From positions 1 to 58,211 of the forward strand of contig JAUZRQ010000055.1 of NCBI GenBank assembly GCA_030950365.1: a stretch of 58,211 nt of DNA, given 5' to 3'. The position numbers and the translations under genes were made by a program. The notes below the pieces were generated by a model that was not told the origin of the DNA, made no database searches, and was given only the letters and a program-made list of their open reading frames with translations. This document shows positions 46,067-48,857 of this stretch, piece after piece. Origin of the DNA: Candidatus Zhuqueibacterota bacterium (GTDB lineage Bacteria; Zhuqueibacterota; Zhuqueibacteria; Zhuqueibacterales; Geothermadaptataceae). The stretch's first letter is position 1. The number at the start of each line of letters is the position of its first letter.

Positions 46067-46675
46067 TCACTCGGTACCATAATCGAAAACCTCTTTCAGG
46101 TCCACTTCCAGACCGGCCACCGTGTGCGAGGCCAACCGACCCGTTTTTTCAAGGCGGTTGTTGAGCTTCAATTCATTCCCCTGCAGGACGTACTGTTCGA
46201 TCCATTGTTCCTTTGGGTGAACAATCCAGTATTCCCGAACACCATGCTCCCCGTAAATGGCCTTCTTTAGCCCGAAGTCGTATTGCTCGCTTGCCGGCGA
46301 CAGGATTTCAATGATCCAATCCGGGGCGCCTTGTACGCAGGCATGTTGGATAATCGCCTTTCTGTCTTTCAGGATGACCAGAATATCGGGTTGAACCACA
46401 TTGATTTCGCTGAGGACCACATCGCACGGGGCGTGCAGGACGATCCCCACCGGTTGCTTCTGGAAAAATGTGCGAATGATAAACTCAAGATTCCCCGAGA
46501 CAATCTGGTGCATGGTATTGGGAGCCGCGACCCTAATCAATTCCCCTTTCAGAATTTCATAACGCTCCCCGGTATCCGGCAGGGCCAGATAGTCCTGATA
46601 GGTGAACGGTCTGGCCGCCGCTTTGTACCTGGCAATGATATCCTGAATTCGATTTTTAGCAGTGCTGGCACTCAT
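46067..46675 (-). CDS. Uma2-family endonuclease-like protein, copy 1
   Basis: 202 residues of the Uma2/DUF820 PD-(D/E)XK fold. Conserved elements: RPFTYQDYLALPD, YEILKGELI, the active-site DVVLSEINVVQPDILVI and DWIIEILSPAS, and EYWIVHPKEQWIEQY. The start (MSASTAKNRIQD) follows GGAGAAGGG. Biological role is unclear; such genes are often multicopy in cyanobacteria and FCB bacteria. It is a tandem paralogue of the next gene. Confidence 0.88.
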   Translation of the reverse strand: MSASTAKNRIQDIIARYKAAARPFTYQDYLALPDTGERYEILKGELIRVAAPNTMHQIVSGNLEFIIRTFFQKQPVGIVLHAPCDVVLSEINVVQPDILVILKDRKAIIQHACVQGAPDWIIEILSPASEQYDFGLKKAIYGEHGVREYWIVHPKEQWIEQYVLQGNELKLNNRLEKTGRLASHTVAGLEVDLKEVFDYGTE

Positions 46676-46703
46676 AAGCCCTTCTCCATCACAAAAATTG
46701 AGT

Positions 46704-47312
46704 TTATTTGACCTCCACAGGAAAAACATCCTGCCATGTTAATGTGAATCCGGGCAGGCAATCGGCGTTGAGTTGCCCGGTGCGTTCAAGCATTGCCGTG
46801 GTCTCAAAGCCAGCGTCCTTCAATACGCACTTTTCGATCCACTGCTCGTTCGGATGCACGATCCAGTATTCCTTCACGCCAAATTCTGCATAAATTTCCT
46901 TTTTGGTCTGCCGATCGTATGTTTCCGTGCTCGGGGAAAGGATTTCGATCACCCAGTCGGGGGCGCCCTGGATGTTCGCCTCTTTAATGATGGATTGTCT
47001 CTCATTGCGGATAATCACAATATCCGGCTGCAGAACATTGACCTCACTCAACACCACATCCACCGGCGCATGCAGCAATTGATCTATGGGATGGCCTTCA
47101 AGAAAACGGCCAATAGCAAATATTAATTTTAAGCTAATGCGCTGATGCACGGTTTCCGGCGCTGGCGACATGATCAATTCCCCCCGCAGAATTTGATAAC
47201 GATGACCGTTGTCGGGCAGGAGAAGATAATCGGCGTAGGTGAAAGCACGGGAAGGTGTTTTGTACGAGGCAGCCATATCCTGTACGCGGTTTCCCCTCTG
47301 CTTCGCGCTCAT
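46704..47312 (-). CDS. Uma2-family endonuclease-like protein, copy 2
   Basis: 202 residues, clearly a duplicate of copy 1: RAFTYADYLLLPD, YQILRGELI, DVVLSEVNVLQPDIVII, DWVIEILSPST and EYWIVHPNEQWIEK align without gaps. The two are separated by 28 bp and are probably co-transcribed. Catalytic acidic residues are preserved in both copies, so neither looks decayed. Confidence 0.88.
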   Translation of the reverse strand: MSAKQRGNRVQDMAASYKTPSRAFTYADYLLLPDNGHRYQILRGELIMSPAPETVHQRISLKLIFAIGRFLEGHPIDQLLHAPVDVVLSEVNVLQPDIVIIRNERQSIIKEANIQGAPDWVIEILSPSTETYDRQTKKEIYAEFGVKEYWIVHPNEQWIEKCVLKDAGFETTAMLERTGQLNADCLPGFTLTWQDVFPVEVK

Positions 47313-48306: not shown

Positions 48307-48780
48307 TTATTCGGTTTCGAAGTGCAGCTCAGAGGTCATTTCGATGGAGCAATGAATCGAGCGGTAAACCGGGCAAAAGTCGGCGTGGAACGCATGCACT
48401 CGCTCAGCAACCTCACGCTGGCCGGGTTCGATCTTTAGATGGTACGTGACATGAATCCGGCGGATGACCAGCACCTTGCCCTCGGTTTCAATTTCGCCAA
48501 CCGCTTCGGACGTCAACCGGCCTTCGCCGGCCGGAATCCCGCGCGCTTCCAGCGCGCCACCCAGCGTGCCGGTCATTCAACCGGCCGTTGCCGCGACGAT
48601 ATAATCCAAAGTAGTAGCATGCGGCGGGAAAGCATCGGCGGAAACGCCGTAGTGCTCGGCAATCCCGGAATGCACACCAAACATCACGGGCTCCGGTTCC
48701 GCAGGCAGATAAGCCCGCCTCACCGGCCCCTTCACGCGCTCGATTCGAATCCTGGATGTATAAACCCCTTCATCCGCCAT
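48307..48780 (-). CDS. OsmC-family peroxiredoxin with in-frame UGA (predicted Sec)
   Basis: Thiol-dependent hydroperoxide reductase family. Read through one TGA (48577-48579, codon 68) the frame gives 157 residues: MADEGVYTSRIRIERVKG..., HATTLDYIVAATAG-U-MTGTLGGALEARG..., and FCPVYRSIHC near the end. The UGA falls exactly where OsmC proteins have their peroxidatic Cys, and the second Cys is in FCPVY. A hairpin with a GGA loop follows 19 bases later. OsmC-like selenoproteins are known. CAGGAGAG before the ATG fixes the start. The alternative is a pseudogene or read error (TGC or TGT to TGA). Confidence 0.75.
48541..48557 (-). promoter_or_regulatory. Candidate bacterial SECIS hairpin
   Basis: In the mRNA GCGCGCT-GGA-AGCGCGC forms a perfect 7-bp stem with a G-starting loop; the loop begins 26 bases after the UGA. 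Distance and the G at the loop start agree with bacterial SECIS rules (loop roughly 16-37 bases downstream). Confidence 0.6.
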
Positions 48781-48857
48781 GATTCTCTCCTGAAATTCTA
48801 TAATCGCAACAAAAGGCCGTATTGGTTTATTCAATGATAGCACATGCAGGAGGCTTT

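Follow-up and report, generated by a model that had tools for sequence, protein, structure and literature searches.

Within the window, as the whole analysed stretch of 58,211 nucleotides from a Candidatus Zhuqueibacterota genome is called here, a gene for an OsmC-like protein lies on the minus strand and runs from 48780 to 48307 (Table 1). It begins with an ATG at 48780-48778 and ends with a TAA at 48309-48307. When its single in-frame TGA, codon 68, is read as a residue, the product is 157 amino acids long. Standard ORF calling gives two pieces, 48843-48577 and 48576-48307 (88 and 89 aa). An earlier note on this DNA, which did not give the strand, had described a frame interrupted only by one TGA and had predicted that automatic annotation would split the gene, and both statements are correct. 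The adjoining ORFs look, by eye, like an alpha/beta-hydrolase and an aminotransferase. By-eye inspection found no other single-TGA frame in the window with comparable support. At 46067-47312, also on the minus strand, a pair of neighbouring ORFs, each about 200 aa long and alike in sequence, look by eye like a tandem duplication of Uma2-type endonuclease-fold proteins.

Table 1. Features of the OsmC-like gene and its surroundings (positions in the window)
Feature	Position	Strand	Evidence
OsmC-like gene, predicted selenoprotein	48307..48780	minus	157 codons + TAA; translation with TGA=U, PF02566 44.3 bits, AlphaFold2 pLDDT 94.4
In-frame UGA (predicted Sec68) at the peroxidatic Cys position	48577..48579	minus	homologous codon is TGA in 84/84 family members
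Predicted bacterial SECIS hairpin (stem of 7 bp; loop of 3 nt, GGA, 48550-48548)	48541..48557	minus	MFE -12.9 kcal/mol, pairing kept, excess folding over shuffles
Cys136 (TGC), putative resolving Cys	48373..48375	minus	invariant in 84/84 members
Arg21, possible counterpart of the catalytic Arg in Ohr/OsmC	48718..48720	minus	invariant in a 20-member alignment; correspondence inferred
Asp59, possible stand-in for the catalytic Glu in Ohr/OsmC	48604..48606	minus	invariant in a 20-member alignment; aligns with a Glu of T. thermophilus OsmC (1ukk)
Shine-Dalgarno-like CAGGAGAG upstream of the ATG	48785..48792	minus	read directly in the sequence

The protein matches the Pfam OsmC family (PF02566) with an E-value of 2.5e-11, and its bit score is well over the gathering cut-off of 27.5. 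The AlphaFold2 model, built from the 20-member alignment, adopts the OsmC/Ohr/YhfA fold. In structure comparisons it was closest to 2onf (Z 15.1); 1ml8, which we take to be E. coli YhfA, gave Z 14.2 over 129 residues, and E. coli OsmC 1nye scored 12.9. The uncharacterised OsmC-like proteins 2onf and 2egt are among the nearest folds. Both redox residues of the OsmC superfamily are present and invariant, the N-terminal one as predicted Sec68 and the C-terminal one as Cys136. More specific models fit poorly: TIGR03562 (OsmC), with a cut-off of 85.8, gives 22.1 bits, and Ohr (TIGR03561) and SACOL1771 (TIGR03563) score lower still or give no match, with neither cut-off reached. The model NF041052 (OsmC_like_Se) does not match the window protein, and the relatives score 12-20 bits against its cut-off of 95.

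TGA occupies the equivalent of codon 68 in all 84 members examined (the window gene, 3 from the same phylum and 80 from other phyla), with the 83 nearest relatives examined sharing 44-72% identity with the window protein. Within its own phylum a clear homologue was found in 4 of 82 genomes, including the window genome, and all four have TGA; the three same-phylum homologues are 60%, 55% and 44% identical. The other relatives are the best 80 of 283 that turned up when bacterial and archaeal genomes were scanned; TGA and Cys136 were each present in 80/80. The scan was not biased towards TGA because one of its two patterns had Cys at that position and the other left the site untouched. Judged by record title, these relatives belong to Chloroflexota, Acidobacteriota, Actinomycetota, Myxococcota, Gemmatimonadota, Thermodesulfobacteriota, Nitrospirota and others, mostly as metagenome bins, and the members together span about ten phyla. 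The motif U-[LM]-T-G-T is found in nearly all of them.

Of 400 Chloroflexota genomes searched with a profile, 38 gave the gene, with TGA at the codon in 35. The remaining three have TGC (L148, encoding Cys), TGG (L147) and a split gene (G220). The TGG copy, which encodes Trp, lacks a normal start and its hairpin is altered. The G220 homologue (contig C29, 5477-8059) is in two parts about 2.2 kb apart, with the break between profile residues 63 and 78, and seems to have suffered an insertion right at the Sec/SECIS region. A second, divergent Chloroflexota clade (L150-L153) has a U-M-Y-G-T motif at approximately 39-45% identity, with TGA and a hairpin of its own. The earlier note had placed the TGA at the catalytic Cys and stated that the resolving Cys is kept, which the family bears out. 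As for the Cys/Sec exchange that it proposed to look for, homologues from many phyla have Sec at this codon and one Cys form was found.

In the tree the window copy is placed apart from those of its own phylum, with the nearby branches under the starred support level, and horizontal transfer of the window gene is plausible on this pattern. A plasmid search with the protein gave no match. Across the neighbourhoods of the 84 loci there is no conserved partner, and the commonest neighbour cluster occurs in 6 loci.

Downstream of the UGA lies the hairpin GCGCGCU-GGA-AGCGCGC (48557-48541), with 7 pairs and a loop that starts with G, 26 nt from the UGA. The earlier note's description of a perfect hairpin with a G-starting loop at SECIS distance is thus accurate. 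Published constraints on bacterial SECIS elements are a loop of 3-9 nt, a stem of 4-16 bp, a distance from the UGA of 16-37 nt, a G within the first two loop positions and an MFE of at most -7.5 (PMC13188914), and the window hairpin lies within all of these limits. In most members the sequence 3' of the UGA reads GGCGCGCU-GGA-RGCGCGY, and all 7 pairs are kept in 86 of the 111 Sec-form sequences. Rfam searches of the whole window and of the hairpin at permissive thresholds returned nothing relevant, which is expected because bacterial SECIS elements are variable.

Third codon positions are nearly fixed within the hairpin and free around it, frozen only in codons +7 to +12. At these wobble sites Ala is GCG in 71/83 sequences (codon +8), Leu is CTG in 71/84 (+9) and Ala is GCG in 73/83 (+11). 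Folding was also compared with synonymous shuffles that used each gene's own codon usage. Among 44 genes the mean z was -1.48 and -1.69 in the windows at +12 and +21 nt, and about -0.4 to 0.1 in almost all other windows of the gene. Over 83 genes the excess folding averaged z -1.72. Because the sequences are related, these values show one trend repeated consistently across the family and do not count as independent tests. Taken by itself, the window gene is matched in folding by 4% of its shuffles. Judged by these silent sites, the hairpin is under selection.

In marine Dehalococcoidia/SAR202-type copies (L060, L066, L071-L073, L075, L076, L079, L084, L085, L092) the downstream sequence is GGYGCCCTTGAGGCSCGC and the folding register is shifted. 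The predicted SECIS is remodelled in these copies while the protein stayed almost the same. The single Cys form, L148, was considered as proof that the hairpin tracks Sec and was rejected as too weak: 5 of 7 pairs are still possible in it, and some Sec forms (marine Dehalococcoidia, L150-L152) likewise retain only 4-5 pairs in this register and fold in a shifted one.

The window genome (G000) is 95% complete, in 136 contigs. It contains a tRNA-Sec with anticodon UCA (contig C6, 84828; 68.8 bits), selB on the same contig (76758; 324 bits) and selD on contig C136 (L015 893-1816; 380 bits). Hence the selC, selB and selD that the earlier note proposed to look for were found, and selA has no match in the assembly. 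The identical selA search found a match in 66 of 82 genomes of the same phylum, 63 of them over the cut-off and the sister species (G001) among them. In the sister genome selA is directly preceded by serB and followed by groEL (gene names assigned by eye). The serB and groEL of that locus are both absent from the window assembly, where serB gives only a partial match of 25% identity. A contig missing from the assembly is a far more likely cause than true loss of groEL, so the absence of selA together with serB and groEL points to an assembly gap. Among 20 carriers outside the phylum, selA scored over the cut-off in 18; the two without a match are both MAGs.

The selD of the window genome has an in-frame TGA of its own near the N-terminus (...SCAG-U-ASKIGPGDL...), as do those of G001, G034 and G064, and probably encodes a selenoprotein too. 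Another side observation concerns tRNA-Sec, of which there is a second copy (L002 1500-1590, that is, contig C111 3021-3111 of the window genome, and L001 1508-1598; 98% identical). The copy extends from about position 8 to just beyond the 3' end, and its 5' acceptor strand is replaced. It looks like a displaced selC copy of the type that integrating elements can leave; no integrase was evident by eye within 3 kb around either.

The UGA at codon 68 is almost certainly read as selenocysteine, and the gene would then be a working selenoprotein gene. SelB carrying Sec-tRNA-Sec would bind the hairpin past the UGA, and selenocysteine would be inserted at codon 68 to give a 157-aa protein of the OsmC/Ohr fold. 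The recognition of a SECIS by SelB differs between species. Sec insertion, the SECIS, the fold and the conservation of Sec68 and Cys136 are the parts of this reading supported at the level of sequence.

The role of the protein is probably that of a peroxidase, by analogy with characterised relatives. Ohr/OsmC proteins reduce organic hydroperoxides by means of a peroxidatic and a resolving Cys and are recycled by lipoylated proteins (PMC4069020), and catalysis is assisted by two residues close to the Cys, Arg and Glu (PMC5962072). The window protein resembles the Ohr/OsmC peroxidases (TIGR03561, TIGR03562) in its fold, its two-residue redox centre and a conserved Arg. It differs from them in having Sec in place of Cys and Asp where Glu aligns. 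Arg21 may be comparable to Arg19 of XfOhr (PMC5962072). In the proposed mechanism Sec68 would take the place of the peroxidatic Cys, and its selenolate would attack an organic (lipid-type) hydroperoxide to form a selenenic acid. Cys136 would resolve this to an intramolecular selenenylsulfide, which a lipoylated protein or another dithiol could reduce. Hydroperoxide as substrate, the nature of the reductant and any catalytic part played by Arg21 and Asp59 are inferred.

Alternatively, the selenoprotein may have a function other than that of a peroxidase, as an OsmC protein of YhfA-like type that acts in redox chemistry or thiol binding, a less likely reading that nevertheless has several observations on its side. 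The nearest folds include 1ml8, 2onf and 2egt, and the Ohr, OsmC and SACOL1771 subfamily models score far under their cut-offs, the family being distant from every characterised OsmC subfamily. The 84 loci share no conserved neighbours from which a role might be guessed. OsmC members of the YhfA type are not classed as thiol peroxidases (PMC4069020), and because 1ml8 is among the nearest folds a peroxidase role is held with less confidence than Sec insertion. Similarity to 1ml8 is confined to the fold: identity is 12%, it has no Sec, and its subfamily stands apart from the thiol peroxidases (PMC4069020). Against this alternative, the combination of Sec, a conserved resolving Cys and candidate Arg and acid partners is what a selenol peroxidase needs, and a peroxidase is the reading retained here.

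Far less probable are the two readings in which codon 68 is not selenocysteine. A change from TGC or TGT to TGA takes one base and the window comes from a draft genome, so a Cys codon misread in sequencing, or hit by a recent nonsense mutation, could in principle underlie a pseudogene; the TGA in 84 of 84 homologues already refutes this, and the open frame on both sides, the wobble-level selection on the hairpin and the Sec machinery in the genome are also against it. Decoding of the UGA as another residue such as Trp, through a reassigned code or tRNA suppression, could draw on the TGG of one homologue (L147) but is just as improbable, as that copy has the defects of a decaying gene, the other non-TGA copy (L148) encodes Cys, the codon stands where OsmC has its catalytic Cys, there are both a SECIS hairpin and a tRNA-Sec(UCA), and most of the roughly ten phyla use the standard code.

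OsmC-like selenoproteins as such have been known since 2005, a point that the earlier note does not make; they were then reported in the Sargasso Sea selenoproteome (COG1765/PF02566; 3 Sec and 10 Cys forms; PMC1088965). The GOS set later included 5 Sec and 161 Cys forms (PMC2398784). Sec OsmC-like proteins also appear in reviews of 2022 and 2026, and the published motif is always UxxT. Among the published sequences are MBR72571.1, MCS5647933.1 and AACY01145085. Like the Sargasso Sea proteins, the window gene belongs to the OsmC family, has Sec in place of the catalytic Cys and carries a bacterial-type SECIS 3' of that codon. As far as the published description allows a comparison, its U[LM]TGT is strictly not UxxT. 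Cys forms outnumber Sec forms in the published family, whereas here there is one clear Cys form among the 38 carriers in 400 Chloroflexota genomes. NF041052 ("OsmC-related (seleno)protein") is likewise a curated model of OsmC-type proteins with selenoproteins, from which the present family is separated by the low scores given above. A search of the available literature found nothing on the NF041052 model, nor on Sec-OsmC from soil or Chloroflexi.

The kind of protein is therefore already known, and by the motif description and the NF041052 scores the genes described here probably form a separate, unnamed subfamily that mainly uses Sec. We lean slightly towards a fuller claim, that this is an undescribed OsmC subfamily which is almost exclusively Sec-containing, occurs in about ten phyla (mainly Chloroflexota and Acidobacteriota), is missed or split by annotation, and is distinct from both the published OsmC-like selenoproteins and NF041052.

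Sec-containing OsmC proteins had earlier come from a handful of marine metagenome reads, and genes of this kind now extend to many phyla, with genomes numbering from dozens to hundreds. A widespread gene for a putative antioxidant enzyme is cut in half by standard ORF calling, and current annotation covers this branch poorly. Its SECIS is under strong selection and Cys versions are very rare, which makes the family a good model for studying why some proteins stay with Sec.
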